From Armatimonadia bacterium (GTDB lineage: Bacteria; Armatimonadota; Zipacnadia; Zipacnadales; JABUFB01), in the NCBI GenBank assembly GCA_039679385.1, contig JBDKVB010000173.1:1-45662 (forward strand): 45,662 bases of DNA. The letters are read 5' to 3'. The translations under genes and the position numbers were made by a program. The number at the start of each line of letters is the position of its first letter. Positions within the stretch are counted from its first letter, which is position 1. The notes beneath the pieces are model-generated. The model was not told the origin of the DNA, did no database searches, and saw nothing but the letters and a program-made list of their open reading frames with translations. This document shows, in pieces, positions 8,449 to 37,296 of the stretch.

Positions 8449-9927
8449 TCAGACCTCCACCGAGTACACGGTCCCGTCCTCCACCTCCAGCCGCAGCGCG
8501 AGGGTGTCGTAGCGGAACTCCTCGCCCGTCTTGCCACCTTCCCAGGTCAGCACGTGACACGAGCTGTCACCGTGAACCGGCACGGCACTGTTGAGCTCAT
8601 ACCCCGGTAGTGGACGCCCAAAGGGATCACGCAGCTCAGCCCGCAGCACTCCTCGCACCTCGGCGTTCACAACGAAGTGCTCGCCGACGTGATTGAAGGG
8701 CTTCAGCAGCAGACGGCCTATCATGCGCTCCGTGCTCTTCAGTCCTGCGAACCGCCCCTTCGGGACCTGTGCCGTCATGATCTCGCTGTGGGCCGCTGCG
8801 ACGCCTTCCGGCAGCTTCCCGTTGTGCATCGAGTTCACGCCCTGGTACAGGACGATCCAGTTGTCCCCGCCGTCGATCAGGCGGTTTGTGGCGTAGGCCC
8901 CCATGCAGTCAGGCTCCGGTACCGGACCCCTTGGTATCCACCCGCCGCGCAAGGGGCGGAGCCAGTGATGGGTGTCGCGGCTGAAGCACAGCTCGATGTC
9001 CATTGTCTGCTCCCAGCAGCGGTAGTGGCCCAGGAACCCCAGATTCCACTCACCCTCCGGCTGGACGGCCAGGTAGTAGAACTGCTGGTGGAGCGGGTCG
9101 TTCTCATCAGCGAGGATCAGCATCTCGGGATCCGACCACTCGATCCCGTCGCGGCTTTCGCGCCGGTGGATGGTTCGCAGAACCCGGGGTGCGTTGTCAT
9201 GGGGTGTCATGCGTCGGGTCTCGGCGTCGATCGGCAGCAGCCACACCGAGTACATCTCCAGCATCCGGGTGCGCTCGTTGTAGTACACATAGGTCGCATC
9301 GTTGCTGCGCAGTCTCTTCGCTGCCCACCAGTCCATGGTTCTCTCGGCGGCGAATCGGTTCTTCGGGTCGGCGGCCGTCAGCCCGGCGACGAGTGCATTC
9401 TGCCCGAGCTCCAGGTCCGCCGGGTGCATGATGTGGGGCATCTTGAGGTCGATGATCCGCCAGCGGATCCCGTCCTCGCTCTCGGCCACGAGGTAGCGCA
9501 TCCGGCCGATGTGGTGGCCGTGCCACCAGAACCACATCAGCCAGCGCCCATCGGGGCACTGAACCACCTGCGGCTGCACGATGCTCTCACCGGCCGGCAT
9601 CCCCTCCGGCCAGATCCAGTTGGTCTCGAGGCCCTCGTGCTGCACCTGTCCCAGGTCGGGCTTCTCCCAGCGCAGGCCGTCCCGGGACTCGGCCAGAGCC
9701 AGGTTGTACGAACGGGGCTCGGCTCTCCGCGTGGCCGAGTAGTACAGCCGGTACGTGCCGTCCGGCATCGGCACGACACTCCCGGCGAAGCACAGGGCCC
9801 GCTCCAGATCGCTGGGACGCAGATCCATGTCGGCGACCCCACACTTCTCCACCGGTCCAGGGGTCAAGTGTAGGTTCCAGCGTGCGGCAACGTCGCGGTC
9901 ATCGAAGAAGTAGAGCCTGCGAGACAT
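8449..9927 (-). CDS. Five-bladed beta-propeller glycosidase-like protein
   Basis: The product is 492 aa with no signal peptide, so it is probably cytoplasmic. Repeated blade signatures of the GH32/43/130-type five-bladed propeller are visible: VPMPDGTYRLYYSA, LALAESRDGLRWEKP, CPDGRWLMWFWWH, LVAESEDGIRWR and HRRESRDGIEWSDP. The C-terminal 110 residues (from about LLLKPFNHVGEHFVVNAEV) form a beta-sandwich module that, from memory, accompanies GH32-like proteins in planctomycetal and armatimonadal genomes. A catalytic acidic triad cannot be assigned confidently, so substrate and even hydrolase activity are open. Together with its neighbours it suggests intracellular processing of sugars released by secreted enzymes. 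The gene is monocistronic, with convergent termination at 8382-8418. Confidence 0.75.
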   Translation of the reverse strand: MSRRLYFFDDRDVAARWNLHLTPGPVEKCGVADMDLRPSDLERALCFAGSVVPMPDGTYRLYYSATRRAEPRSYNLALAESRDGLRWEKPDLGQVQHEGLETNWIWPEGMPAGESIVQPQVVQCPDGRWLMWFWWHGHHIGRMRYLVAESEDGIRWRIIDLKMPHIMHPADLELGQNALVAGLTAADPKNRFAAERTMDWWAAKRLRSNDATYVYYNERTRMLEMYSVWLLPIDAETRRMTPHDNAPRVLRTIHRRESRDGIEWSDPEMLILADENDPLHQQFYYLAVQPEGEWNLGFLGHYRCWEQTMDIELCFSRDTHHWLRPLRGGWIPRGPVPEPDCMGAYATNRLIDGGDNWIVLYQGVNSMHNGKLPEGVAAAHSEIMTAQVPKGRFAGLKSTERMIGRLLLKPFNHVGEHFVVNAEVRGVLRAELRDPFGRPLPGYELNSAVPVHGDSSCHVLTWEGGKTGEEFRYDTLALRLEVEDGTVYSVEV

Positions 9928-10227: not shown

Positions 10228-10971
10228 ATGAAGGTAATTCCCCGGGCATGTCGAATAGTCCTCGCGCTATGCTGGATGCCGGCACTCGCAGTCCCCGTGT
10301 GGGCAGCGCCGGCAAAGGACGCTTCTGCCGACGCGCGAGACGATGTGGTCGTCGTGGTCTTCTCCGACGCCGGTGGCCACCGGGGCACGGTGACCCTCTC
10401 GTACCCTGAGGGCGTCTCGCAGTCGCAGGTGCAGCAGGATCTGGTCGCGATGCAGACCGTTTCGGACTGGCGCTTCTCCCCTGCCGGCGTGAAGAGCGGG
10501 GCGCAGGAGAGCCAGGCAACGGCCGTCATGCGGCCCGCCGCCCATATCGGAGCCTACGGAGAGCCGGTCTGGCCTGCAGTCTGGGCTCTGCGTCGCTTCA
10601 ACCGCGTCACCGTGGTGGTCATGGGAAGCAACTACCAGGGGCGGACCGGCAACCTGGAGAACAAGTATGTGCGGCTGGTGCGGAGTGGCGGCGGGATGCT
10701 GTGGTCGTACGACGCAACGGTCCTGGACCGCACCTTCGCAACCATGGCCGACCTTTGCACCGCGAGACCGGAGGCCACCACTCCTGAACCGGCAGCGCCG
10801 ACCGCACCGCAGCCCAGACGGAACCTGTGGCCGCTGGCGCTGATAGCGCTCGCCGTCGGTGGTGTGGCCTACTTTGTGACAGCGCGTGCCGGCCGTGGCA
10901 AGGGTATTACCCAGTCCGAAGCGAAGCACCGGGCGACTCTGCGGTCACGTCGGGCACGGAATATGCGTTAA
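10228..10971 (+). CDS. Hypothetical secreted protein with C-terminal membrane anchor
   Basis: I do not recognise this 247-residue protein. It has a Sec signal peptide (about 1-26, ending LAVPVWA) and a mixed alpha/beta extracytoplasmic domain (about 30-180) containing DDVVVVVFSDAGGHRG and RRFNRVTVVVMGSNYQG. A Thr/Pro/Ala-rich linker (about 181-196) and one hydrophobic helix (about 197-218, WPLALIALAVGGVAYFV) follow. A basic tail (RSRRARNMR) should face the cytoplasm. The ribosome-binding site is weak (GAAGG about 12 bases before ATG 10228). It stands between tRNA-Ala and the pilT cluster on the same strand, 163 bases before the first pilT-like gene. Co-function with the pilT genes is possible but unproven. 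Confidence 0.7.
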   Translation: MKVIPRACRIVLALCWMPALAVPVWAAPAKDASADARDDVVVVVFSDAGGHRGTVTLSYPEGVSQSQVQQDLVAMQTVSDWRFSPAGVKSGAQESQATAVMRPAAHIGAYGEPVWPAVWALRRFNRVTVVVMGSNYQGRTGNLENKYVRLVRSGGGMLWSYDATVLDRTFATMADLCTARPEATTPEPAAPTAPQPRRNLWPLALIALAVGGVAYFVTARAGRGKGITQSEAKHRATLRSRRARNMR

Positions 10972-11134: not shown

Positions 11135-12409
11135 TTGAGTGAATGGAAGCTCGAGATGTGGCAGGACGTGATCCGGGCGGCTGCGGCGGTCAAGGCTTCG
11201 GACGTCTTCTGGAAGCCCGGCACCCCTCCCCACGCGAAGATGAAAGGCGTCGTTGAGATGGCGCCCGAGGGCGACAGTGGCCCCTGGCCCGTGATGAGGC
11301 AGGAGGACACTGAGGCTATCGCCCGCAGCCTCATGAGTGATCGCGCCTGGGAGCGTTTCCTCGAGTTCCCCGAGAAGGACATAGGTCTCAGCATCGAGGG
11401 CGTCTGCCGCCTTCGTATCAACATCTACCGCGAGCGGGGCAACGTCTGCGGGGTCATGCGTATCATCCCCCTGGACATCCTCACGATTGACGATCTGGAC
11501 ATGCCGCCGGTCCTCAAAGACATCTCCATGAGCCCGCAGGGGCTTGTCCTCGTTACCGGGCCCACCGGCTGCGGGAAGTCCACCACCCTGGCGGCGATGA
11601 TCGACCACGTCAACCGCAACCGCAAGGCCAACATCATCACCGTCGAAGACCCAATCGAGTACGTTCACAGGGACCGGAACTCGATTGTCAGCCAGCGCGA
11701 GGTCGGCATCGACACCGAGGACTTCCAGCCTGCCCTGAAGTACGCCATGCGCCAGGCTCCCGACGTGATCCTCATCGGCGAGATGCGCGACACGATCACC
11801 ATGAGCGTCGCCATGCAGGCAGCCGAAACCGGCCACCTGGTCTTCTCAACAGTTCACACCACGAGTGCTGCCGAGACCCTCGAGCGTATCGTCAACATGT
11901 TCCCGCCCCACGAGAAGCAGCAGATCTGCATGCGCTTGAGCCGCACACTGCGCGCCGTCATCTCCCAGTCACTGGTTGCCCGCAAGGAGAGCCAGGGACG
12001 GGTAGCTGCCATGGAGATCATGGTGGTCACGCCGACGATCCAGAAGTTCATCGAAGATGGCAAGCCTTCCGAAATGTACGAGGCCATTGTGGAAGGCGGC
12101 CACTGGGGTATGATGACCAAGAACCAGTCGCTGTTGTATCTGTACCGCGACGGGTTCATCAGCGCCGACCAGGCCCTGTTCTGGGCCGGCAACCGCACCG
12201 AGATGCGCCAGATGATCCGGCGCCTCGATGGGGAACGCTCCGATGCCGCCAGGAAGGCTGCCGAGGCTGCTGAGGCCGAGGAGCGGCTGCGACGGACACG
12301 GCAACGGGCTGCGCAGCAGCAGGCCGCTGCCCAGGCCGCCCAGGCCGCTCAGGAAGCCCAGGGCAACGGTTCCGCTCCTCCTCCGCCCCCCGCGGGCGAG
12401 AACGGGTAG
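11135..12409 (+). CDS. PilT/PilU-family type IV pilus ATPase, divergent paralogue 1
   Basis: This is a hexameric secretion-type ATPase of the PilT family, which power pilus retraction at the inner membrane (424 aa). The N-terminal PAS-like domain (about 1-105) precedes the ATPase core. Walker A is GPTGCGKST (142-150), with Cys where the other two copies have Ser. The Asp box is TVEDPIEYVH, Walker B is VILIGEMRD with E216, and the His box is TGHLVFSTVHTT. The C-terminal PilT motif is degraded: GKPSEMYEAI replaces the usual GKTHQ-type segment, which is reminiscent of PilU-like accessory motors. The last 55 residues are Ala/Gln-rich coiled coil ending in a polyproline stretch. It starts with TTG and is the first gene of a triple pilT array. 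Confidence 0.9.
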   Translation: MSEWKLEMWQDVIRAAAAVKASDVFWKPGTPPHAKMKGVVEMAPEGDSGPWPVMRQEDTEAIARSLMSDRAWERFLEFPEKDIGLSIEGVCRLRINIYRERGNVCGVMRIIPLDILTIDDLDMPPVLKDISMSPQGLVLVTGPTGCGKSTTLAAMIDHVNRNRKANIITVEDPIEYVHRDRNSIVSQREVGIDTEDFQPALKYAMRQAPDVILIGEMRDTITMSVAMQAAETGHLVFSTVHTTSAAETLERIVNMFPPHEKQQICMRLSRTLRAVISQSLVARKESQGRVAAMEIMVVTPTIQKFIEDGKPSEMYEAIVEGGHWGMMTKNQSLLYLYRDGFISADQALFWAGNRTEMRQMIRRLDGERSDAARKAAEAAEAEERLRRTRQRAAQQQAAAQAAQAAQEAQGNGSAPPPPPAGENG

Positions 12410-12526
12410 CAGACCTGTTGTGACCTGGCGCACGGGCTTCAGAGACATGCGCCGAGCCCGCAGCGCGGACGACACAGTGCCTGGTCGACCAAGCTAACAG
12501 TGGCGCCCAATCAGGAGGTAGCTAAG

Positions 12527-13708
12527 ATGGCGAGTTTTGCCTTGCCGGACCTGCTGAGGCTCATGCCGGACATGAATGCGTCCGACCTCCATATCCGCGC
12601 TGAGGAGCCTCCGGTCATGCGCGTGAATGGCAAGCTTGGACGGCTCACGGACTTCCCGGTCATGACCGCTGACGACACCCGTGAGCTCATGACGGCGATC
12701 ATGACGCCAAGCCAGGAAGAGCGCTTCGAAGAGACGCGGGTCCTTGACATGGCCTACGAGATGGAGGGCGTCGCCCGCTTCCGGGTCAACGTCTTCCACC
12801 AGCAGCACGCCGTCGGCGCCGTCATGCGAATGATCCCCATCAAGATCAAGAGCGTCGAAGAGCTCGGCCTGCCGCCCATCCTCAAGGAGTTCGCCATGCT
12901 CCCCCGTGGTCTCGTTCTCGTTACCGGGCCGACCGGTTCCGGCAAATCGACCACGCTGGCTGCCATGATCCACCATATCAACGCCACTCGAGCGGCTCAC
13001 ATCATCACCATTGAGGACCCGATCGAGTTCGTGCACGAAGACGTCAAGTGCGTTATTGAGCAGCGCGAGGTCGGCCAGGATACCCACACCTTCAATGACG
13101 CCCTGCGCCACGTTATGCGCCAGACGCCTGATGTCATCCTCGTCGGCGAAATGCGTGACCTTGAGACGATCCAGCTTGCGATCACTGCAGCTGAAACCGG
13201 CCACCTTGTTTTCGGAACCCTGCACACTACCGACGCGATGCAGACTGTCGACCGCGCCGTCGACGTCTTCCCACCGGCGCAGCAGCAGCAGATCCGCATG
13301 CAGTTGTCGGTTACCCTTGCAGCCGTAGTCTGCCAGGCCCTCCTGCCTATCAAGGACCGTGCCGGGCGCGTACCTTCCTTCGAGATCATGAAGGGCTCTC
13401 CAGCCATCCGCGCCGTCATCCGCGAGGGCAAGACCCACATGCTCTACAACCTGATCCAGTCCGGCGCCGAAGAGGGTATGATCGTTCTGGACCAGTACCT
13501 CGCAGAGATGGTGCGTCGCGAGGAGATCGCCTACGAGGCAGCGCTGTCCAAGTCTTCCTATCCCGGGGAATTCGCCAAGCGCTGCGGCGAGTTCGCCGTC
13601 CTGCCCGAGGATGAAGAGGCACCACTAGTCCTTGGCCATGCAGACGCGCCTCCACAGGAAGCGCCTGGCGGCTATGTCCATGGTCAGGCCCAGAGCGGCC
13701 AGCAGTAG
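12527..13708 (+). CDS. pilT: PilT-type twitching motility ATPase, paralogue 2
   Basis: This 393-residue protein is a canonical PilT retraction motor by motif: N-terminal ASDLHIRAEEPPVMRVNG, Walker A GPTGSGKST (134-142), Asp box TIEDPIEFVHED, Walker B VILVGEMRDLETI, His box TGHLVFGTLHTTDA, and the retraction motif AIRAVIREGKTHM. The start is ATG 12527, with AGGAGG at 12513-12518 eight bases upstream. A GTG at 12500 in frame would place that site inside the gene and is less likely. The acidic, Pro-rich C-terminus (from about 365) is outside the conserved fold. It lies 117 bases after paralogue 1 and 67 bases before paralogue 3, in the same orientation, so it is probably in one operon. Confidence 0.95.
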   Translation: MASFALPDLLRLMPDMNASDLHIRAEEPPVMRVNGKLGRLTDFPVMTADDTRELMTAIMTPSQEERFEETRVLDMAYEMEGVARFRVNVFHQQHAVGAVMRMIPIKIKSVEELGLPPILKEFAMLPRGLVLVTGPTGSGKSTTLAAMIHHINATRAAHIITIEDPIEFVHEDVKCVIEQREVGQDTHTFNDALRHVMRQTPDVILVGEMRDLETIQLAITAAETGHLVFGTLHTTDAMQTVDRAVDVFPPAQQQQIRMQLSVTLAAVVCQALLPIKDRAGRVPSFEIMKGSPAIRAVIREGKTHMLYNLIQSGAEEGMIVLDQYLAEMVRREEIAYEAALSKSSYPGEFAKRCGEFAVLPEDEEAPLVLGHADAPPQEAPGGYVHGQAQSGQQ

Positions 13709-13729
13709 CCCCGCAGGGCAAGGAGCGAG

Positions 13730-13746
13730 GTCGGCGCGTCGCCGAC
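13730..13746 (+). repeat. Intercistronic hairpin between pilT paralogues 2 and 3
   Basis: GTCGGCG (13730-13736) and CGCCGAC (13740-13746) form a perfect 7-bp stem with a three-base loop. No T-run follows, so it is more likely an mRNA processing or stability element, or chance in GC-rich DNA, than a terminator. Confidence 0.45.
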
Positions 13747-13775
13747 TATCCGTTGCGTACTAAGGGGGATCCCCC

Positions 13776-15029
13776 ATGGCGAAGATGGACATCAACAAGC
13801 TCCTTGAGTTCGGCGTGAAGCAGGAGGCCTCGGACCTTATTCTCAAGGCCGGGCAGCCCCCGATCTTCCGCATCCACGGTGACCTCGTCCGGATGAAGAC
13901 CGAGGTCGTGACCAACGCCGAAGCTCGCGAGACTGCCTTCCCGATCCTCAACAAAGGGCAGATCGAGAAGTTCGAGGAGGACCTCGAGCTCGACTGGGCC
14001 CACGAAATCCCCGGTCTGGCTCGCTTCCGCGGTAACATGATGATCCAGCGTGGGCGCCTGACGTGCACCTACCGGACCATTCCCATCACCATCAAGACGA
14101 TGGCCGACCTGGGACTTCCGGAGATCTGCCGCAGACTCTCCGACTACCCGCGTGGCCTCGTCCTGGTCACCGGGCCCACGGGATCGGGCAAGACTACCAC
14201 CCTGGCCGCGATGATCGACTACATCAATGAGTCGCGCCCAGAGCACATCCTCACCGTCGAAGACCCAATCGAGTATGTGCACCCATGCAAGAAAGCCCTC
14301 ATCAACCAGCGTGAAGTCGGAGTGGACACGCCCGACTTCGCCGCTGCGCTTAAGTATGCTCTGCGACAGGACCCCGACGTCATCCTCATCGGGGAAATGC
14401 GCGACCTTGAGACTATCAGTCTTGCGATCACCGCAGCGGAAACCGGTCACTTGGTCTTCGGCACCCTGCACACCACCGACGCCGTCCAGACTGTCGACCG
14501 CGTCATTGACGTGTTCCCTCCCCACCAGCAGCAACAGGTGCGTATGCAGATGTCCGTTAACCTTGTCGGAGTGCTTTCGCAGGCTCTGGTGAAGACGCGT
14601 GACGGCCACGGACGTGTCGCCGCCTTCGAAAGCATGGAGGCCGTCCCGGCTGTCCGCAACCTCATCCGTGAGGGCAAGACCCACCAGATCGGTTCGCAGA
14701 TTCAGACCGGCTCCAAGCGCGGGATGTACACCCTCGACCAGTCCCTTGCGACGCTCGTCAAGCGTGGTATCGCCGATGAGGACAGCGCCAGGTCCAAGTG
14801 CATGAGTATCGAGGAGTTCGACGAGTTGCTCGAGCAGGACATCGTCATGGAGGGTGCGACTACCGTCCAGGACGGCGGACCGCGCACGGCAACGGCCGAG
14901 GCTCGCGAGACGGCACACCGCCAGGAGTTCCAGCGGCGCCTGCAACAGCGTCGCGCAGGTGGCGGACACGGTGGACACGGTGGTGGCGCAGGCGCCGGCG
15001 GCGGAGCGGGAGATGGTGGCGGGCAGTAG
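13776..15029 (+). CDS. pilT: PilT-type twitching motility ATPase, paralogue 3
   Basis: The third tandem PilT-family ATPase is 417 aa. It carries ASDLILKAGQPPIFRIHG at the N-terminus, Walker A GPTGSGKTT (133-141), Asp box TVEDPIEYVH, Walker B VILIGEMRDLETI, His box TGHLVFGTLHTTDA, and the best match to the PilT retraction motif (AVRNLIREGKTHQ). The C-terminal 50 residues become Gln/Arg-rich and end in a Gly/His/Ala low-complexity tail that is not part of the fold. The start ATG 13776 follows AAGGGGG. The three copies are clearly homologous but differ in Walker A, C-terminal motif and tail, so they look like old duplications with separate roles rather than a recent amplification. Confidence 0.95.
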   Translation: MAKMDINKLLEFGVKQEASDLILKAGQPPIFRIHGDLVRMKTEVVTNAEARETAFPILNKGQIEKFEEDLELDWAHEIPGLARFRGNMMIQRGRLTCTYRTIPITIKTMADLGLPEICRRLSDYPRGLVLVTGPTGSGKTTTLAAMIDYINESRPEHILTVEDPIEYVHPCKKALINQREVGVDTPDFAAALKYALRQDPDVILIGEMRDLETISLAITAAETGHLVFGTLHTTDAVQTVDRVIDVFPPHQQQQVRMQMSVNLVGVLSQALVKTRDGHGRVAAFESMEAVPAVRNLIREGKTHQIGSQIQTGSKRGMYTLDQSLATLVKRGIADEDSARSKCMSIEEFDELLEQDIVMEGATTVQDGGPRTATAEARETAHRQEFQRRLQQRRAGGGHGGHGGGAGAGGGAGDGGGQ

Positions 15030-15251
15030 TCTCCACCGCCCACCGCGGTGGCCACAATAGACAGCTCCGCGCGCGATACCGGCTCAGGGGGTATCGTCCA
15101 GGGTCAGGTCGTCAAGGAGCCTCGCCGCGCGCAGCAAGAAGACGGCAGCAGGCAGCGCAGGGGCTCGTGTCCTGGGAACTACTTGCTGCCGTTGCTGCTA
15201 GTTCAGACAGTATCCGCCGGCACACATTCTCTGTTCCGGGTAAGGGACACG

Positions 15252-16397
15252 ATGAGGACCCAATCGCGGCCACACCCACCAAGGCACGAGGCAGCATCCA
15301 TCGACGTTGGCGACCTCCTGACGCGGTACGGGGCTGTCCTGGTTAGGCTCGGCGGCCTCGGCTTCCTCGTCTGCGTCGGCTACTTCATCTACGCGATCTA
15401 TGGGGGCGTCCTGCAGGGCGCGGACCCGCAACGGGCCCATTTCCTCATCAGTAGCTTTGGGAAGGGCCTGGTAGTCTCCTCCATCGTCCTCGCCCTTGGC
15501 ATGGTCACCGTCACCATCGATGAGGTCGCCTATTCGGTGCTGGTTGGCCTCGGTGGCGTGGCGCTTATGCTCGGTGTCCCCTATCTCGTTGCCAGCAACC
15601 TGTCCTCGCAACTCACCGCTGAGTACCAGAACGTCACACGCACCCTGTCGAGCTCGGGCACCAATGCCGGCCTTGGAGTACTCGTCGTCGTCGCTCTGCG
15701 CATCCTCTACGAGCTGTACATACAGATCCTCGAGGCGCCCGAGCGACGTCGCGTCAAGCTCGAGAAGGAAACCACGGAGGGTGTCGTCAAGAAGGGCAGC
15801 AAGTCCTTCGTCGGTGGCAACATCACCAGTCGGTGCTGGCAGATGCCCTTCTGCCACGAGCGCATCAAGGAGATCTGCCCGGCCTTCAAGGCGCGCAAGA
15901 CCTGCTGGCGCTACGGCATCGGCTGCAACTGCGACCCCAAGCTCATCGAGACCCTCATCCGCATGGGGGCACCGGGTAGCGGGAAGCAATCGAACGAGAT
16001 GCGCGTGCGCCAGGGCGACTACATACGGTCCGACCTCCAGGCCGACGCCAAGCTGACGGACAGGCAGGACCGCACCATCGCCTGCTCCAAGTGCCCGATC
16101 TACAACGAACACCAGCGCCTCAAGTTCAAGTTCGTTAACCCGGTCATGATCCTCGGGACCGTCGTCGCCCTCGGGGCGCTGTACCAGCCCATCACGGGCG
16201 CCTGGGCCGCCGTCGCGGGGGGTATCGTGCGCGTCGCCCACAACATCACCCTGAGGTCCGAGTTCGATGCCGGTGAGTGGTTCAGCTACCTGCAGGACGA
16301 CGTGATCCGGGTCTTCTTCTTCCTGATCGTCAGCCTCATCGTCCTGGCCTATGTGCTCAAGTTCACTGAGTGGCTGATCCTCCAGAAGAAGTGGTAG
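15252..16397 (+). CDS. Six-helix membrane protein with eight-cysteine cytoplasmic domain
   Basis: I do not recognise the full-length family. The 381-residue protein has four predicted transmembrane helices (about 29-51, 68-88, 92-115, 139-160), a soluble charged segment with a cysteine cluster, then two more helices (about 295-320 and 350-375). The cysteines are C195, C201, C209, C218, C225, C227, C278 and C281. Their context (CWQMPFC, ICPAF, TCWRYGIGCNC, CSKCPIY) resembles the two-CW type motif that I recall from some bacterial sensory proteins, and metal or Fe-S binding is plausible. ATG 15252 follows AAGGGA; the frame is open upstream to 15048, but that segment lacks protein-like character. 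It is the last gene after three pilT paralogues, before a strong hairpin, so a role in pilus motor control is suggested by context only. Confidence 0.75.
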   Translation: MRTQSRPHPPRHEAASIDVGDLLTRYGAVLVRLGGLGFLVCVGYFIYAIYGGVLQGADPQRAHFLISSFGKGLVVSSIVLALGMVTVTIDEVAYSVLVGLGGVALMLGVPYLVASNLSSQLTAEYQNVTRTLSSSGTNAGLGVLVVVALRILYELYIQILEAPERRRVKLEKETTEGVVKKGSKSFVGGNITSRCWQMPFCHERIKEICPAFKARKTCWRYGIGCNCDPKLIETLIRMGAPGSGKQSNEMRVRQGDYIRSDLQADAKLTDRQDRTIACSKCPIYNEHQRLKFKFVNPVMILGTVVALGALYQPITGAWAAVAGGIVRVAHNITLRSEFDAGEWFSYLQDDVIRVFFFLIVSLIVLAYVLKFTEWLILQKKW

Positions 16398-16429
16398 GCG
16401 CAGCTCCGCGCCACTGTCCGCGAACAGGC

Positions 16430-16460
16430 AACGAGGCACCACACTCTGTGGTGCCTCGTT
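16430..16460. terminator. Long perfect hairpin after the pilT cluster
   Basis: AACGAGGCACCACA (16430-16443) and TGTGGTGCCTCGTT (16447-16460) form a perfect 14-bp stem with a three-base loop, 33 bases after the stop at 16397. The stem itself ends in TT but is followed by CCGCG, so the U-tract is poor. It most likely ends the pilT-membrane protein transcript. Confidence 0.75.
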
Positions 16461-16556
16461 CCGCGTCCCATGGTGGTCGGTCCCTTCCCGAAAGGAAGTG
16501 GCCTGCCTTCCCGCGAAAGGACGGTCACTCGCCTCTGAACTGAGCGGAGGGCCACC

Positions 16557-19500
16557 ATGCACGCTCTGAGCAGCCTACTTCTGACCGTCTCCCTTGCCGT
16601 CGCCGCCGCAGCCGACGTGCCGACTCCCAGCTTCTACCTGCCGCTCGATGGGGATGCCGAAGCCCGGGTGGCGGTCGGGTCACCTACGCCGCAGACCCGC
16701 GGGGCAGCCGACGACATCCTCGCGTACCTGAGTCTGCAGCGTTCCCTCTATGGCCCCGGCAAGGTTGGTCTGGCTTACGACGCCAAGGACACGCCGCTGG
16801 TGTACCAGTGCGCCGGGAACTTCCGCGCCGAGGAGGGCAGCGCGAGCTTCTGGCTGAGCCCGCACTTTGAGGGCTCCGACCACGGGATCTACTGCACCTT
16901 CTTCGGCGCCGCCAACTGGGGGATGGTCTACAAGTATCTGGACCAGTCCACCGTCACCTTCGCCACGGCCCGCCCAGACAAGGACCTCTACTATGACTGC
17001 GGCTCCCACGACATCAGCTCCTGGAAGCCCGGCCAGTGGCACCATGTCGGCCTCACGTGGTCGCGCGCCGGCAACTTCCGGCGGCTCTACCTCGACGGCA
17101 AGCTCCAGGGCAGCGGCGCCTTCCCCTTCTCTCGCGAGGTCAAGGAAGGGCCGCTCTTCGTCGGAGCGGGCTGCACGCTCTACCCGACCCCGGTTGCGCA
17201 CGCCCAGTTCGACGAGGTCGCACTGTGGGATCGGCCGCTAAGCGACGAGCAGATGGCCGAAGTCTACGATCGCGGTCGCCAGTCGCTTCCCCTGGTGGCT
17301 GCGGCAGAGCTTCCGGTTCGTCCTGCACCCTCCTCCGCAGGGGCCGTGCAGCCGGTTACTCCTCGTGCGGTCGAGCAGCCGCCTGCCCCGGTCAACAGCA
17401 CGCCCTCACGTCGCTCTGTGTCGCTGGAGGGTTGGTGGGCGTTCCTTCCGGTCCAGGCACCCGTCTCGCAGCTCCCCACGCAGGGCTGGGGTCTCGCTCG
17501 CGTGCCCGGCTACTGGACGGCACCGGGTGAGGCACTGGATGCTGCGGGGAAGTCACTGGGGAACCGTTGGCTCGGCAGGCCCCTCACCGACTACCGCCTG
17601 GCCTACCACCAACGCACCTTCACCCCGCCGGCTGACTGGAAGGGCAAGCCGGTCTTCCTTGCCTTCGAGGGTGTCGACGGCCTGGCGCAGATACTGCTGA
17701 ACGGTCAGCCTCTCGCCTGGCTCCTGGGATGGGAGTACGAGTCCTACAACGTGTCCGACCGCCTCAAGTGGGGCGAGACAAACACCCTCACCCTGGTCCT
17801 GCACACCCGGGGAGACAGCCCGAACGCGGGTATCTACGGCAGCGTAAGCCTGCAGGCCATGCCCGACAGCTTCACCGACCACCTCACCGTGCAGTCGGTG
17901 GTGGATAGCCGCCAGATCCGCTTCTCCTGTGACCTCTGGCACCGAGGTACCGCCGAACCGGCGAAGCTGCAGTTCACTGTTACTCCGCACAGGGGCGATG
18001 GCGGCGAGAAGCGCTTCCTTCAGGACCTCCGACTGGATCCCGTCGACCGCTCGCAGCCGGCCTTCTCCCAACAGTGTCGCCGCGTCGAGGCCACCTTCGA
18101 CTGGCCCGAGGCGCATCTGTGGAACGTGGACGACCCTTACTTGTATGACGTCCGCGTGCAGCTCTTGCAGGGCGATAGGCTGGTGGACGAAGCACCACCG
18201 GTTCGCTTCGGCTACCGCGAGTTCACCCGGCGAGGCTCCGACTTCTACCTCAATGGCAAGCCGGTCCACCTGCGTGGGCACCAGATCGATCTGGCCTGGG
18301 CCTCACAGATGGGGCACGTCAAGGAACTCAAAGCGGCCGGCATGAACGCCTTCGAGCTTTCCGGACCGATCAGCCATAGCTGGTATGCCGGCACGAAGTA
18401 CCAGCGCGACCTCTTCGAGCAGGTGCTGGACTACGCCGACGAGACCGGCCTCCTGGCGATCCCGATCCTGCCCGACGCCATGGTGCTGCGCGACCGCCTC
18501 TTCGACCCTGAGGTCTCGCCCCTTTACCGCCACCGCGTCGAGAACCACCTCCGCCAGTACGGCAACCACGCCTCCATCGGCTTGTGGTTCATGCACTTCA
18601 ACCTGGCCGGCTACCAGTGGTACGTTGCGCCCAGCAAGATCGACGGCAGCCACAAGCCGGCCGACGCAGGCTTCCAGGCGAAGGAGCGTTTCGCGCTCGA
18701 GGCCGAGAGGATTGCCGAGAGCCTCGACCCACGTCCTCTGTACCACCATGCCTGCGGCAACTTCGGCGACATCTTCACAGCGAACGTCTACCTCGGGCCG
18801 AACCAGCCTCTGCAGGAGCGCGAGGAATGGCCGCTGCGCTGGGCCGAGAAGCGGCCCTTCCCGCTGGTCGCCTGCGAGCACTGCTGCTACCTGATCCCCT
18901 ACTGGTTCCGTCCGCGGCAGTTCCCTCTGTCCGTCGTCTACGCGGGCGAGCCGATCTTCGACGAGATCTCGGCGCAGGTCCTCGGCCCACGTGCCTACCG
19001 CATGGTCACGCCTGAGCTCTTCGACCTGTACGATATCGGGCGCACTCCCCGGGGGACGAGGCTCCAGGACCTGATCCGCAACCATCCGGGCTACCAGGAG
19101 GTCAAGTCCCTGGTTGCCCGGCGCTCGCTGCGTTCCTGGCGCGCCTTCGGCATCTCCGGCATCATCTTCAACGCCATCAACTGGGACTTCAAGGACGCGC
19201 AGGGCAAGGACCTGCCCGTCATGAAGGCACTTGCGCGGTACTTCGGCGACACCGATCTGTTCATCGCCGGGCCGCCGGGGGACTGGCCCTCCAAGGACCA
19301 CGCCTTCATGTCGGGAGAGACCGTCCGCAAGCAGTTCGTGCTGCTGAACGACCTCAACCACGACATCCCTGTGACGCTCAACTGGCGGCTTGCTGATGCT
19401 GCCGGGGCCGGCTCTCGCCAGGGCACTGTCACTGCGCTTGCCAGGGCCGGGGAGACCACCTTCTGCCCCATCGAGTTCGAGGCTCCCCGCGTGGCTGAGC

Positions 19501-20855
19501 GGACCGAGTACCGCCTGCGAGTGGAGCCCGCTGCTCAGCCTGCGACGCCCTTCCTTGCCGAGAGCATGACGCTGCAGGTCTTCCCGGAGCCACAGCCGCC
19601 CAGGCTGACCGGCCAGGTTGCCCTCTACGACGAATCCGGAAAGACCCGGGAGGCTCTGGCGCGTCTGGGGGTGACCGCCAGACCCCTCGACGAGTCCACA
19701 GACCTCAGTGGTGTCTCGCTGCTGGTGGTTGGACGCGAGTCCTGGAGCGACCGCTTCCTGACCCTCGCGCGGAAGGTCGGCGTCGAACAGGCCGTCCAGC
19801 GTGGCATGAACCTGCTGGTCCTTGAGCAGTCCGGTGGCAGTCCCTGCGGGCTGCCGCTGGAGGAGACCTCGACCCGCGACGCCTTTGTCACGGTTCCCGG
19901 CCATCCCTTCCTCAGCGGGCTGACGGAGCAGGACCTTGCCGACCTGCGGGGCGAATCCGACCTGATTGCTCCCTATCCTGACGCTCGCCCTGAGACCGAG
20001 CGGTCCTGGCCAGAGCGCTTCCACAAGTGGGGAAACCGCGGCGTCCTGGCCACCTTCGTCTACCCGCGACCGCACTACGCACCCTTTGTGCCGGTGCTCT
20101 CCTGCGGGTTCGACCTGGCCCAGTCACCGCTGCTGGAGGGGCGCTTTGGTGCCGGTCGCGTCACCCTGAGCCAGATTGACGTGACCGTTCGCGCCGGAGT
20201 GGATCCCGTCTCGACCAGACTGCTGTCCAACCTCCTGCAGTCCCTGAGCACTCGCGGGACCGTGCCGGACCGAAGCTGCTGGTACGTCGGCGAGTCGGCC
20301 CGCACGCTGCTCAAGTCCTTCGGGATCGCGGCGCAGCCTGGCACAGCGGCCTCGCGTGGAGTGGTCGTTCTCGGTACCGAGCCCTGTCCGCCCGAGGTGT
20401 TGGGAGGCCTTCAGCAGGCCTTGCGCGAAGGCACCCAGGTCGTGATGATGCCGGGGTCGCCGGCCGCTGCGTCCCTTGGGCCACAGGTCCATGTGGAGCG
20501 GGTCTTCGCAGCCCGCAGCACGGGCAGCTTGCCTCCCGGCCTTCAGGACGGCGACCTGTTCCTCAAGACCTGGGTGAGCCTGGACACCTGTCGCCCACAG
20601 ACGGACTGGACGCCGCTGACTGAGCCGGGTATCCTTGCTGAGCGCAAGGTCGGAGCGGGACGTCTGCTCACCTGCAGCCTCGACCCTTCGCGCCTCGGGG
20701 CCACTCGCGAGCGCATCAAGGCCCTGCGGATCTGGAACCTGCTGCTGGCCGACCTCGGCGCTCACCGCACGGGCTTCGAGGGCTTCCTGAGCCCGCAGGT
20801 GCCGACCTGGGAGCCCAACACCTGGGAGACGATTCCGCCCTACATGAACTGGTAA
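16557..20855 (+). CDS. Giant secreted LamG plus GH2-like multidomain protein
   Basis: This 1432-residue exported protein is built for polysaccharide binding and possibly cleavage. A signal peptide (1-20) is followed by a LamG/concanavalin-like domain (about 25-245) and a Pro-rich linker. A GH2 sugar-binding jelly roll (about 285-440, LEGWWAFLP and DWKGKPVFLAFEGVDG), an Ig-like domain (about 440-550) and a GH2-type TIM barrel (about 551-890, starting FYLNGKPVHLRGHQID) come next. Two C-terminal glutamine-amidotransferase-like or ThuA-like domains (about 1010-1200 and 1245-1410) end it. A nucleophile-like glutamate is E774 (VACEHCC). In the strand that normally ends in Asn-Glu (acid/base), the sequence reads WFMHFNLAGY, so the glutamate is replaced by L683. 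It may be inactive or use another residue. ATG 16557 follows GGAGGG. Confidence 0.85.
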   Translation: MHALSSLLLTVSLAVAAAADVPTPSFYLPLDGDAEARVAVGSPTPQTRGAADDILAYLSLQRSLYGPGKVGLAYDAKDTPLVYQCAGNFRAEEGSASFWLSPHFEGSDHGIYCTFFGAANWGMVYKYLDQSTVTFATARPDKDLYYDCGSHDISSWKPGQWHHVGLTWSRAGNFRRLYLDGKLQGSGAFPFSREVKEGPLFVGAGCTLYPTPVAHAQFDEVALWDRPLSDEQMAEVYDRGRQSLPLVAAAELPVRPAPSSAGAVQPVTPRAVEQPPAPVNSTPSRRSVSLEGWWAFLPVQAPVSQLPTQGWGLARVPGYWTAPGEALDAAGKSLGNRWLGRPLTDYRLAYHQRTFTPPADWKGKPVFLAFEGVDGLAQILLNGQPLAWLLGWEYESYNVSDRLKWGETNTLTLVLHTRGDSPNAGIYGSVSLQAMPDSFTDHLTVQSVVDSRQIRFSCDLWHRGTAEPAKLQFTVTPHRGDGGEKRFLQDLRLDPVDRSQPAFSQQCRRVEATFDWPEAHLWNVDDPYLYDVRVQLLQGDRLVDEAPPVRFGYREFTRRGSDFYLNGKPVHLRGHQIDLAWASQMGHVKELKAAGMNAFELSGPISHSWYAGTKYQRDLFEQVLDYADETGLLAIPILPDAMVLRDRLFDPEVSPLYRHRVENHLRQYGNHASIGLWFMHFNLAGYQWYVAPSKIDGSHKPADAGFQAKERFALEAERIAESLDPRPLYHHACGNFGDIFTANVYLGPNQPLQEREEWPLRWAEKRPFPLVACEHCCYLIPYWFRPRQFPLSVVYAGEPIFDEISAQVLGPRAYRMVTPELFDLYDIGRTPRGTRLQDLIRNHPGYQEVKSLVARRSLRSWRAFGISGIIFNAINWDFKDAQGKDLPVMKALARYFGDTDLFIAGPPGDWPSKDHAFMSGETVRKQFVLLNDLNHDIPVTLNWRLADAAGAGSRQGTVTALARAGETTFCPIEFEAPRVAERTEYRLRVEPAAQPATPFLAESMTLQVFPEPQPPRLTGQVALYDESGKTREALARLGVTARPLDESTDLSGVSLLVVGRESWSDRFLTLARKVGVEQAVQRGMNLLVLEQSGGSPCGLPLEETSTRDAFVTVPGHPFLSGLTEQDLADLRGESDLIAPYPDARPETERSWPERFHKWGNRGVLATFVYPRPHYAPFVPVLSCGFDLAQSPLLEGRFGAGRVTLSQIDVTVRAGVDPVSTRLLSNLLQSLSTRGTVPDRSCWYVGESARTLLKSFGIAAQPGTAASRGVVVLGTEPCPPEVLGGLQQALREGTQVVMMPGSPAAASLGPQVHVERVFAARSTGSLPPGLQDGDLFLKTWVSLDTCRPQTDWTPLTEPGILAERKVGAGRLLTCSLDPSRLGATRERIKALRIWNLLLADLGAHRTGFEGFLSPQVPTWEPNTWETIPPYMNW

Positions 20856-32633: not shown

Positions 32634-35204
32634 ATGGACATCAACATAGTCTCTCTCCTTGGAACGGCCTGCATCACGCTATGCCTGGGCCTTGTCGCCT
32701 ATCTGCGGGCCCCCGACCGGCCCTCGAACCGGCTGTTCGGGGTCCACGCCGCCGTCGTCGCTGCCTGGGTGTTGCTCACCTGCGGAGTCATGGTAGCGGA
32801 GCTCGAGGCGCTCTCCGCCCTGATGCGTGCGCTCCACATCGCTTCCCTCTTCGTCGTGGCCACCTTCGTCGACTTCGTCTGGGTCTTTCCTGACAGGCTG
32901 CGGATGTTCCCCTGGAAGCGGCGGGCGCCCCTGTACATCCTCGCCCTGCTCTTCAGCCTGGTTGCTGCGCTGCCCTCTCTGGTTCGCTCGGTGAAGCTGA
33001 CTTCCTTTGGCCCGTGTGTCGAGTTTGGCTGGCCCCTGGCGGTCTTCGCAATCTACCCGCTGACCTTGGTCATCCACGCGAACCTGGTTCTCCTCCACAA
33101 GCTCAGGACACTCAGGGGCGTCGCCCGCGTCCAGACGGTCTATGTCTTCTTTGGCACCCTCGTCTGCGAGCTCATCATCCTCACGACCAACGTCTTGCTG
33201 CCGATGGTCACCGGGATGACGGCGTACAGCCGGTGGGGCGCCGTCGGCTACCTGATCGTCATCGCTGCGATGGCTATCTCGATTGCCAAGTACCGGCTCT
33301 GGGACCTGGACGGCCTCACCCGAAAAGCGGCGGCTGGGATGCTCGCGCTGGCCGGCCTGGTTCCGGTCGCGGGAAGCGTTATCTGGACGCTGGGCAACCA
33401 GACGCATCTCTGGGAAGGAAACCCTTCGCAGGTTGCGGTTCTGTGGATGTCCATCGGAGCGATACTCGGGCTGTTTCTGATCCCGACCTACCACACCTTC
33501 CACGGTCTTGTGGTGCGTCCTCTGCGTGCCGAGCGTGACCGGATTGGGCACCTCATCAGCGCCCTGGGTGCGGCAGTGGTGCGCGCACCGGCCGATGGAT
33601 CCGCCTTGCTACCGATCCTGGCCGAGACCCAACGGTTCTTCAATTGCACCCTGGTATCCGCCTACCTGCGCGGTCTCGATGGGGCCCTGCGATGCGCCGC
33701 GTCAGTGCTGCCTGACGAGCAGCCCACAGCGCCCTCCTACGCGGTCGTCGGCCGTCGACTCCCGCTCAATGTTGTGCGCGCGCTCAACGCAGATCAGCTC
33801 ACCAGAACTCTGGACGCAGGGGAGATCGCTCGCTTTGGCGCCCTTGAGGAGAGCGCCCGGACCCTCGCCGCGATGTCCGATATCGGCGCGAGCGTCGTCA
33901 CTCCGCTGCGCTGGGAAGGCCAGACCATCGGCCTCCTGGCCCTCGGCGAGAAGGTGTCGAGGGACATGTACTATGGGACTGACCTCGACGTGCTCGAGAG
34001 CGTGGCCAACCACGCAACCATCGCCGTCAAGAGCTCTGAGCTGAAGGGCCAGATACTCTCCGAGAAAGAGCGCACAGAGAAGGTGCTCGCGCAGATGGAG
34101 AGCGGCGTGGTGGCCGTCGACTCGCGCAAGACCATCCTCTTGGTGAATGCGGCGGCCTGCAATCTGCTCGGGCGTCAGGAGTCGGAACTGCTAGGGCAAA
34201 GCGTTCGTGTCCTGCCTCGCCCCTTGCGCGATGCCCTGCACCGCGCCCTCGATGCCGGTGTCACGAGCTCGGGTGAGAAGGCAAACCTGGCCCAACCCGC
34301 GGGCAGTGCGGAGCGAGTGCGACGGCTGCGGGTGAGCTGTAGCACCTTCCTGCTCCGTGGTCCGAATGGCGCCACAGAGGGTGGCGGCGTCGTCTTCCGC
34401 GACCTCAGCACTGAGGACGCCCTACGCCGCACTGAGCAGGAAGCCGAGAGGCTGCGCTTCATCCGGGCCGTCTCCGCCGGTATGGCGCATGAGATTCGCA
34501 ACCCCCTGGTCGCGATCCGCACCTTCGCCGAACTCCTGCCGACACGGTTGGATGACCCCGAGTTCCGCGAGTCCTTCCTGCAGGTCGCGCGGTCCGAGAT
34601 CAACCGGCTGGAGGAGCTCGTGGTGCAGTTCATGACCCTGGCGAAGCCGACGCGCCTTGTGCGTCAGCCCGTGGATCTGCCCGCCTTCGCACAGGGCGTC
34701 GTGACGGTCCTGACGGCGAGCTTCGAGGCTCGCAAGGTTCGGCTGACGACGAATGTGGCACCCTCCCTACCTGTCTTCCGGGCCGACGAGAACCGGCTGC
34801 ATCAGGCGGTACTCAATCTCCTGATGAATGCTCTGGACGCGACTCCGGAGGGTGGAGAGATAGAGCTCACGGTGGCCTTCGCCCCCGGACCAGGGGGCGA
34901 TGAGCCCGGTGATGAGCAGGAGACGGCCGACAGGTCCGGCGAGGTTGTGCTGCGTGTGTGGAACTCCGACAGTTACATCGCGCCCGAAGACCGCGAGCAC
35001 GTCTTCGAGCCCTTCTGGACCAGGAAGGCAACGGGTACAGGCCTTGGCCTTGCCATCTGCCAGACGATTGCCGATGAACACGGGGGAACGATCGCGGTGG
35101 AATCCAACAGCGAGACAGGAACTGCCTTCACTCTGCGTCTGCCACTGGTAGTCCGGGCAGGCGCGGACTCCACCGAGGCTTTCGAAATGGCGGTATCATC
35201 ATGA
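32634..35204 (+). CDS. Membrane sensor histidine kinase (7TM-GAF-PAS-HisKA-HATPase)
   Basis: This 856-residue kinase has an N-terminal membrane region of about seven to eight helices (1-290, resembling the 7TM sensor module of histidine kinases). A GAF-like domain (about 300-470), a PAS-like domain (about 480-600), and a dimerisation helix with phosphoacceptor H619 (MAHEIRNPLVAI) follow. The ATPase domain has N-box N732 (NLLMNALDA), an unusual G1 region (NSDSYIAPED), F-box (HVFEPFW) and G2 box (GTGLGLA). It should be active. ATG 32634 follows GAGGAG. Its stop overlaps the start of the next kinase gene (35201-35204), and the HisKA regions of the two are near-identical in pattern, so they are duplicated partners. 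Confidence 0.9.
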   Translation: MDINIVSLLGTACITLCLGLVAYLRAPDRPSNRLFGVHAAVVAAWVLLTCGVMVAELEALSALMRALHIASLFVVATFVDFVWVFPDRLRMFPWKRRAPLYILALLFSLVAALPSLVRSVKLTSFGPCVEFGWPLAVFAIYPLTLVIHANLVLLHKLRTLRGVARVQTVYVFFGTLVCELIILTTNVLLPMVTGMTAYSRWGAVGYLIVIAAMAISIAKYRLWDLDGLTRKAAAGMLALAGLVPVAGSVIWTLGNQTHLWEGNPSQVAVLWMSIGAILGLFLIPTYHTFHGLVVRPLRAERDRIGHLISALGAAVVRAPADGSALLPILAETQRFFNCTLVSAYLRGLDGALRCAASVLPDEQPTAPSYAVVGRRLPLNVVRALNADQLTRTLDAGEIARFGALEESARTLAAMSDIGASVVTPLRWEGQTIGLLALGEKVSRDMYYGTDLDVLESVANHATIAVKSSELKGQILSEKERTEKVLAQMESGVVAVDSRKTILLVNAAACNLLGRQESELLGQSVRVLPRPLRDALHRALDAGVTSSGEKANLAQPAGSAERVRRLRVSCSTFLLRGPNGATEGGGVVFRDLSTEDALRRTEQEAERLRFIRAVSAGMAHEIRNPLVAIRTFAELLPTRLDDPEFRESFLQVARSEINRLEELVVQFMTLAKPTRLVRQPVDLPAFAQGVVTVLTASFEARKVRLTTNVAPSLPVFRADENRLHQAVLNLLMNALDATPEGGEIELTVAFAPGPGGDEPGDEQETADRSGEVVLRVWNSDSYIAPEDREHVFEPFWTRKATGTGLGLAICQTIADEHGGTIAVESNSETGTAFTLRLPLVVRAGADSTEAFEMAVSS

Positions 35205-37255
35205 TCACAGCGGTGCTTATCACCGGGCGTGCGACCGCCTTGGGCCCCAAGGATGCGATTGACCGGCTGCGCGACATCCTGCGCAAGAGCGCAGCGGTTG
35301 TCGAGCTGGACAGCGAAGTGTTCCCGGGCACGACACTCGGGAGCATGGTTGTCGACATGATCGTGCTCGAGGCGCAGCACCTCACGCACCAGACAGTGGA
35401 GCTACTCGATCAGGTTCGCACCATGTACCCTGAGAGCACCACAGTCTGCGCGGCGTCCGAGGAGGTCGCTGAACGGGCACGTGTCGAGGGTGCTCTCTCC
35501 CCCGACTTCTGGGTCCTTCTCTCGGCCTCAGACCTCCAGATGCGCACGCAGGTTGAGGCCATCATGGCCTACCTCAACGCCAGCCCACGGCGCTGTGGAG
35601 CACCGTCTGCCAACCACCTGGCACCGTCGCTCAGCTCGCCCGCGGGCACGGCTCTTGCAGCTGTCGCGCAGGGCAGCGTCCACTCGATGCAGCGGACAGA
35701 GAGCGCTCTGTATCGCATGGTCGGTCGTGTGACCGGAAGCTGCGATACGGAAGACCTGCTGGGCGCCTACTGCGATGCCGTCCACGAGATGACCCAGTGC
35801 GTGAACTACTGCCTGCTGTGGCAGGATGCGAACGCACGCGAGTTCCGGATCGCACGCTCGGAGGGCATGCCGCCGGTCGTCGAGGAAATGTGCCACATGA
35901 GCCTCACCGATCCTCTGCCGACCTGGCTGCTGCGCAACCGCGGAGTCCTGACCCGTGACGCTCTGGCCCAGGCTCCCGAGGGCACGGCGATACAGCGTGA
36001 TCTCGACATGCTCGGCGGGGTCGTCGCAATCCCCTTGTTCTCCCAGAGCGTGTTGCGGGGGTTCTTGGCCGTCGGCCCCAAGGTCCTGGGCACTCCCTAC
36101 CAGCCATCCGAAGCCGAGGCGCTGTTCGTCCTTTCTGCGAACGCGGCGGCCGGAGCACGACAGACAGAGCTGCACCGGGAGCTCGAGGCCCGCAACAACT
36201 ACATCGACCAAGTGCTGTGGACGATGGAGAGCGGAATCGTCACAATAAACCTCGAAGCCAAGGTCTGCGTGTGCAATCCCAATGCGGCGCGGGTACTGCG
36301 GCTCAAACAGGAAGGTGCGATCGGGCGCGACCTGCGTGTTCTGCCTTCGCCTCTGGGGGACTACCTGTATTCGTGTCTGACCTACGGCGAAGAGCGCAAC
36401 CACGAGGAACTCGCCGTCCTCGGTGGTCAGGTGCTGATCCGTGTATCGACCCGTCGTCTCCTCGCGCCGCAGGGAGCCCTGATGGGAGCCATGCTCCTCG
36501 TCGAGGACACAGCCGCTGAGCGGGCGCTCGCCCGAGAGAGACGCAAGGCGGAGCGCAACGAGGTCATCGGCCAGATGGTAGCGCGCTTTGCACACGAGTT
36601 GAAGAACCCGCTGGCCACCATCCACACCTTCGCGGAACTGCTGCCGACCCGCATGGACGACCCGGAGTTCCAGCATTTCTGGTCGCAGCAGGTCATGCAC
36701 GACGTCCACCGGCTGGATGACTTGGTGGCCAAGCTCGTGTCCCTGTCCGAGCCACCTCCCTCCAGGCGCCAGACAGTCAACTTGGTTGACGTGGTGAGGA
36801 TGGCGGTAGACCGCGTCGTGCTGCTGGATCCCGAAGCCACGCAGCATATCATCACCAGCATCGACGGGGGCCTGCCCTCCGTCCAGGTCGACGCCGACGT
36901 CATGGCGACCGCGCTCTCACACCTTCTGCGTTACGGGCTCGGCCGAGAGCGACGAGCGGTCGTCGTCGATGCGCGGCTGCAGGATGGTCCGAAGGGTGAG
37001 CAGCCCGTCGCGATCTATGTGCGCGCTGATGGACGTGGTGCGCCGACCGGCGAGCCACTCCGGCTTCTCGACCCCTCCTATGTTCTGGATCACCCGGACA
37101 TCGACCTGGGCCCCTCGGCCAGTCAGCGCCTCATCGAGAGCCAGGGAGGGGCCCTCGAGGCCTACTGTGAAGCTGAGGACATCGTCTTTCGCGTCTCCCT
37201 TATCCCCGTTCACGAACTTGATGATGAGCGGGCTGAGGTAGACCGACGCCGTTGA
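35201..37255 (+). CDS. Cytoplasmic GAF-PAS histidine kinase with degenerate ATPase domain
   Basis: This 684-residue protein has an N-terminal receiver-like alpha/beta domain of about 125 residues without a clear phosphoacceptor motif. A GAF-like domain (about 165-330), a PAS-like domain (about 340-445) and a HisKA helix with H465 (FAHELKNPLATI) follow. Its HisKA segment closely parallels that of the upstream kinase (HTFAELLPTRMDD versus RTFAELLPTRLDD). The ATPase domain lacks the N-box Asn (SHLLRYGLG instead of NLLMNALDA), a G1 DxGxG and a glycine-rich G2 box. It is therefore probably a phosphate acceptor or pseudokinase working with the upstream kinase. The start codon overlaps the upstream stop, and the next gene begins 41 bases later. 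Confidence 0.85.
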   Translation: MITAVLITGRATALGPKDAIDRLRDILRKSAAVVELDSEVFPGTTLGSMVVDMIVLEAQHLTHQTVELLDQVRTMYPESTTVCAASEEVAERARVEGALSPDFWVLLSASDLQMRTQVEAIMAYLNASPRRCGAPSANHLAPSLSSPAGTALAAVAQGSVHSMQRTESALYRMVGRVTGSCDTEDLLGAYCDAVHEMTQCVNYCLLWQDANAREFRIARSEGMPPVVEEMCHMSLTDPLPTWLLRNRGVLTRDALAQAPEGTAIQRDLDMLGGVVAIPLFSQSVLRGFLAVGPKVLGTPYQPSEAEALFVLSANAAAGARQTELHRELEARNNYIDQVLWTMESGIVTINLEAKVCVCNPNAARVLRLKQEGAIGRDLRVLPSPLGDYLYSCLTYGEERNHEELAVLGGQVLIRVSTRRLLAPQGALMGAMLLVEDTAAERALARERRKAERNEVIGQMVARFAHELKNPLATIHTFAELLPTRMDDPEFQHFWSQQVMHDVHRLDDLVAKLVSLSEPPPSRRQTVNLVDVVRMAVDRVVLLDPEATQHIITSIDGGLPSVQVDADVMATALSHLLRYGLGRERRAVVVDARLQDGPKGEQPVAIYVRADGRGAPTGEPLRLLDPSYVLDHPDIDLGPSASQRLIESQGGALEAYCEAEDIVFRVSLIPVHELDDERAEVDRRR

Positions 37256-37296
37256 GGACTATGCGTTAGTTGCGCTGTCAGGGGGTCTTTTGGGTC

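Follow-up and report, generated by a model that had tools for sequence, protein, structure and literature searches.

A fixed-order array of three PilT-family ATPase genes in Armatimonadota and its possible role in type IV pilus retraction

Background

The closest described relatives of the genes studied here are the type IVa pilus retraction ATPases of NCBIfam family TIGR01420 (PilT/PilU), and among these the neighbouring pilT and pilU genes of proteobacteria, one of which encodes a retraction ATPase without the AIRNLIRE motif (PMC6762196). In Vibrio and Pseudomonas this second ATPase, PilU, retracts pili only together with PilT (PMC6762196). Each of the two, PilT and PilU, assembles into homohexamers of its own, which likely touch each other and PilC (PMC6821130), and hetero-hexamers of the two have been argued against (PMC6762196). 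Several divergent paralogues, some of them encoded outside the pil cluster, are also known from Geobacter (four PilT) and Neisseria (PilT, PilU and PilT2) (PMC5065972, PMC10790696). The question of why bacteria keep more than one PilT paralogue has been addressed mainly through scattered genes of a few proteobacteria. Here we describe three consecutive PilT-family ATPase genes in a 45,662-nucleotide stretch of DNA from an Armatimonadia bacterium of the class Zipacnadia (contig JBDKVB010000173.1, C173 in our numbering, referred to as the window, which is the entire contig; the assembly has 5.6 Mb and is 96.6% complete). They are preceded by a gene for an exported protein (UP) and followed by one for a cysteine-rich membrane protein (MP), and we tentatively favour the view that the five genes belong to a module for type IV pilus retraction that is specific to the phylum. 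Relatives of MP that carry names group the window with Armatimonadota, close to 'Candidatus Zipacnadia'/WS1.

No prior description of tandem pilT arrays, of pili in Zipacnadia or of this array was found in the literature, and the Fimbriimonas genome paper merely counts six PilT (PMC4072686).

Results and Discussion

Organisation of the array

Three complete PilT-family ATPases are encoded on the plus strand at 11135..12409 (position 1, open reading frame open from 11003), 12527..13708 (position 2, open from 12500) and 13776..15029 (position 3, with a Gly-rich C-terminal tail). They are followed in the same direction by the gene of the six-helix, 381-residue MP (15252..16397) and by a strong hairpin (16430..16460); because adjacent genes were called from stop-to-stop frames, start codons are approximate. 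The TIGR01420 scores, the helix prediction and the inverted repeat thus bear out the gene order given in the initial annotation, and the unit proved to be larger than first seen, being headed by UP (10228..10971, plus strand), whose homologues lie 5' of the position-1 PilT elsewhere. The unit is conserved across Armatimonadota and therefore the array is real and not a product of chance. The two arms of the hairpin pair perfectly over 14 bp around a 3-nt loop, and the RNA fold of 16415-16480 gave a z of -3.7. The hairpin was rejected as an intrinsic terminator: the stem is real, the T-run is missing and a terminator scan did not list it.

As had been proposed, there is no pilB or pilC in the window: the PF00437 matches on the contig were the three array genes only, and Pfam scans of the remaining main open reading frames of the window detected no further pil genes. 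The array is therefore not a type IVa pilus locus in the usual sense of pilB, pilC and a prepilin peptidase beside pilT; these are found on another contig of the assembly (C91), as a pilB-pilT-pilC-pilD locus with pilin-like genes. An array with no pilB, pilC or pilin beside it, in a genome where the pilB-linked pilT already supplies retraction, might drive some other envelope machine, for example one for transport or surface movement, in which PilT-type hexamers would turn MP as a rotor or as a platform replacing PilC and UP would be the periplasmic part. We consider this unlikely, given that positions 2 and 3 have kept an AIRNLIRE-like, PilT-type motif, that fold comparisons gave no significant match between MP and either PilC or rotor proteins, and that extra pilT genes away from the pilus locus are known to serve pili, as in the case of Geobacter PilT3 (PMC5065972) and Neisseria PilT2 (PMC10790696).

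Three divergent ATPases

All three ATPases scored above the TIGR01420 cut-off of 319.1 bits (424, 471 and 463 bits for positions 1, 2 and 3) and have intact Walker A, Walker B, Asp box and His box sequences. They share these features with the described type IVa retraction ATPases, from which the array differs in holding three divergent paralogues in a fixed order, away from pilB and pilC and together with UP and MP. Three distinct pairs of Walker A and C-terminal motifs were read in the window, in agreement with the initial annotation: GPTGCGKST and TIQKFIEDGK at position 1, GPTGSGKST and AIRAVIREGK at position 2, and GPTGSGKTT and AVRNLIREGK at position 3. Positions 2 (AIRAVIRE) and 3 (AVRNLIRE) thus carry the AIRNLIRE motif of strict PilT proteins with small changes, and position 1 does not carry it. 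The same was observed among their relatives, with a T[IV]xKxIEEG-like sequence throughout the position-1 clade where AIRNLIRE would stand, AIRxLIREGK in the position-2 clade, and AVRNLIRExK, often with a GPAGSGK Walker A, in the position-3 clade.

By the absence of AIRNLIRE position 1 resembles PilU. Its profile, however, scored 445 bits against PilT (5zfq) and 381 bits against PilU (9n32), and the single protein 299 against 249, and we rejected position 1 as a PilU orthologue. Since it is not an orthologue of PilU by similarity, the missing motif may be convergent. The array also differs from the proteobacterial pilT-pilU pair in that position 1 comes first and not downstream of pilT, and in the addition of membrane partners.

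The array ATPases are 45-54% identical to one another and 41-53% identical to the pilB-linked PilT, and these values together with the tree described below rule out a recent duplication. The earlier suggestion that the paralogues form a single mixed motor fared less well, because PilT and PilU form independent homohexamers (PMC6821130) and the case made against their hetero-hexamers (PMC6762196) would, by analogy, make a mixed hexamer of the array paralogues unlikely.

Conservation of the array across the phylum

A tree was built from 108 PilT proteins, with the Shimodaira-Hasegawa-like approximate likelihood ratio test (SH-aLRT) as the only support measure and no bootstrap. In it the proteins of positions 1, 2 and 3 formed separate clades (n=30, 27 and 26; SH-aLRT 100, 98 and 99). 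For every position, the 19 proteins that stem from three-gene arrays all fell into the one clade, and the pilB-linked PilT stood apart. Because each position is a clade of its own with the same gene order, the order is older than the radiation of the sampled families, and the array is an ancient fixed-order set kept across Armatimonadota; recent, near-identical copies lacking conserved synteny, which would have refuted the initial annotation, are not what was found. The paralogues of Geobacter and Neisseria, in contrast, have not been described as one colinear set.

The profile thresholds for positions 1 and 2 were set from score gaps between clades, so that the counts for these two positions are approximate. 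Position 1 was detected in 258 of the 291 phylum genomes, nearly always in a single copy, and position 2 in 167 of them; MP was found in 269 by a single-sequence search and in four more by profile, usually as one copy. Among the 194 near-complete genomes the figures were 185 for position 1, 186 for MP and 127 for position 2. PilT copies numbered 2-9 per genome in all 61 phylum genomes in which they were counted. Positions 2 and 3 can stand as a separate pair (loci L220, L221, L223 and L226), and in some genomes of the Zipacnadia family f6 (L049-L051) the array is reduced to position 1 and MP. In a scan of contigs the best 80 of 158 matches all came from Armatimonadota or from bins without a taxon name, bar one that is likely mislabelled.

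Three further points were noticed. A four-gene array (L228, genome G196) has an additional copy that branches with position 2. Many two-gene arrays of Zipacnadia (L045, L046, L047, L048, L054, L056, L058, L085, L089 and L114) have a fourth divergent PilT type with the motif AIGNLIRERK, on a long branch, which replaces positions 2 and 3 after position 1. Finally, locus L144, which is titled 'Methanoregulaceae archaeon isolate SJ84', has a typical Armatimonadota MP and probably comes from a mislabelled or mixed bin.

The exported protein UP

UP consists of a signal peptide, a periplasmic alpha/beta domain (approximately residues 38-170), one C-terminal membrane helix and a basic tail. In profile searches, a UP homologue lay directly 5' of the position-1 PilT in many families, among them most of the Zipacnadia for which the available sequence was long enough, and UP stays with position 1 where positions 2 and 3 lie elsewhere (L244, L246, L248 and L250). 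The periplasmic domain of a fold model built from 11 sequences (pLDDT 76) superposed on the periplasmic zinc-binding proteins ZrgA/PA4063 with a borderline Z of 8.0 (rmsd 2.7 over 104 residues; next group 6.3) and a Foldseek E of 5e-4. UP is, however, membrane-anchored and only 9-10% identical to these proteins, and its alignment has no invariant His or Cys. As the fold match is borderline and invariant His and Cys are absent, we do not claim zinc binding for UP.

The eight-cysteine membrane protein

MP has six predicted membrane helices, with a cysteine domain (approximately residues 176-290) between helices 4 and 5 that is predicted to be cytoplasmic because its loop contains 26 lysines and arginines, against 0-1 in the opposite loops. 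Eight of its nine cysteines (195, 201, 209, 218, 225, 227, 278 and 281) are invariant in 79 of 79 homologues, as are W196, P210, W219, G224, E286, H287, Q288, K291 and E373. An AlphaFold2 model (pLDDT 84) had four helices at the N-terminus and more towards the C-terminus, and was less certain in the cysteine region between them. MP had been called uncharacterised, and indeed it matched no Pfam or NCBIfam family, with only chance-level matches at E up to 10; no Foldseek match was below E 0.6, and VIA-align reached Z values up to 10 only with unrelated helical bundles, none of them specific.

The nearest resemblance was to the two-CW domain (NF045718, cut-off 35 bits): the cysteines of MP are arranged in a similar CW-C-CP-CW pattern, with a CxxC further on. 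MP differs in having one more cysteine (CxC), in the insertion of the domain between membrane helices and in scores below the family threshold: the window MP gave no match, and one of 41 relatives matched at E 1.6. Comparison by hhalign gave probabilities of 79 and 71% (P 1.6e-5 and 3.6e-5) over 29-36 columns, scores that cysteine-rich segments can inflate, and the membrane part of MP, taken as the control, gave P 0.63.

From the invariance of the cysteines, and from that only, we infer that the domain binds a metal. It could even gate the motors as a switch of the redox or iron-sulfur type, as the eight invariant cysteines with the invariant W196, W219 and H287 and the partial resemblance of its profile to that of the two-CW domain (probability 79%) might suggest, together with the description of Zipacnadia and Hebobacteria, both classes of Armatimonadota, as obligate anaerobes (PMC10290634). 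Nevertheless, a structural zinc site fits the same cysteine pattern and explains it as well as a switch does, and with no NF045718 match in the window MP itself we regard a switch as very unlikely.

Location of MP beside pilT or efp

The initial annotation had tied MP to pilT. In a survey of 125 MP loci, in which some organisms were counted in both collections, MP followed PilT at 54 loci, efp at 56 and another gene at 11, and a contig edge was reached at four. MP is the conserved last gene of the array in Zipacnadia and several other families, and to this extent the proposed tie stands, but it is not exclusive. Among the named loci L082-L116, PilT lies directly upstream of MP at 32 of the 34 informative ones; the remaining two, L086 and L099, correspond to a pair of genomes from a single genus. 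PilT-MP adjacency spans families f1-f8, f10, f11, f13, f22 and f23, between most of which MP is 22-45% identical. Two groups make up the MP tree, one on the PilT side (22/25) and one on the efp side (18/20), both with a support of 99, so the location switched about once.

On the efp side the order is efp-MP-rtcA or efp-MP-accB-x-accC-nusB, where the gene names are presumptive, having been assigned by reading the sequences with general familiarity with such families and not by family search. At L064, L070, L073, L077 and L079 MP adjoins efp, often with accB-accC-nusB as well. In Bacillus the slot between efp and accB-accC-nusB holds the spoIIIA genes, the first of which encodes a PilT/VirB11-like ATPase. 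Among the families listed for MP there was no match to SpoIIIAE.

These placements could mean that MP has a housekeeping role in the envelope and nothing to do with pilus motors, and that it lies beside the array or efp through inherited gene order. The nearly equal numbers of efp and PilT neighbours, the stable two-way split of the MP tree, with roughly one switch, and the near-universal presence of MP in the phylum, as is usual for housekeeping genes, would all be in keeping with such a role. We nevertheless hold it to be somewhat unlikely, since the PilT-MP adjacency has outlasted very deep divergence as well as the loss of positions 2 and 3, and since MP and the array PilT are both missing from G133 and G134, two genomes of one genus (1.5 Mb, 97% complete) that have kept pilB-pilT.

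A possible retraction module

By analogy with PilT and PilU, position 1 might act as a PilU-like auxiliary homohexamer at the base of a pilus machine encoded by the separate pilB-pilT-pilC-pilD locus, and positions 2 and 3 might be added PilT-like retraction motors, each in a ring of its own that would serve a different load or pilus. The core of the module would then consist of UP, the position-1 ATPase and MP. Because UP is the constant neighbour of position 1, and because the reduced arrays consist of position 1 and MP, we propose that UP and MP are dedicated membrane partners of position 1 and may contact it physically. MP, which had earlier been suggested as an anchor of the motors and possibly is one, would dock or position the hexamer through its metal-stabilised cytoplasmic domain, and UP, with its periplasmic part and single membrane helix, would couple the hexamer to the envelope. 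Positions 2 and 3 would be partly dispensable, having been lost in some lineages. A more far-reaching version, in which Armatimonadota have an undescribed envelope motor of their own, with the position-1 hexamer working on UP and a metal-binding MP, either alongside PilC or as its replacement, and with two extra PilT rings, seems improbable to us.

Several observations weigh against a retraction module that includes MP. One half of the phylum has MP in the neighbourhood of efp and not in the array. The joint loss in G133 and G134 amounts to one event, in a genus with reduced genomes. Five near-complete genomes (G175, G179, G222, G237 and G244) have position 1 and no detected MP, and seven others have MP without a position-1 match, mismatches of which assembly gaps may explain some. 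Finally, no structure match links MP or UP to pilus components. The co-occurrence of MP and the array was discarded as proof of a link, being too weak when the sole joint absence in near-complete genomes comes from one reduced genus, and the idea that MP tracks positions 2 and 3 failed, because many genomes bear MP without position 2.

The phylum-wide fixed trio offers a natural test of how retraction ATPases divide their work, and UP and MP are two candidate partners of PilT-type motors. Most genomes have just one copy each of position 1 and MP, which makes them simple targets in cultured members of the phylum such as Fimbriimonas ginsengisoli.

Neighbouring genes

Near the left contig edge (123-4089) lies a row of chemosensory genes, with the end of a gene for a methyl-accepting chemotaxis protein, CheR, CheD, CheX and CheB, which could feed a pilus or another output. 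They were rejected as members of the array, as they were absent beside it in all four relatives checked. Between them and UP, on the opposite strand, there is a gene (8449-9927) for a 492-residue protein without a Pfam family. The gene 3' of the array (16557-20855) encodes a 1432-residue protein with Laminin_G_3 and Glyco_hydro_2 domains. Further downstream, directly 3' of a ketoacyl synthase gene, begin three consecutive genes for signalling proteins (32634-38991): a kinase with seven-transmembrane (7TM), GAF and PAS regions, a GAF-HisKA protein and a hybrid protein with two receiver stretches.

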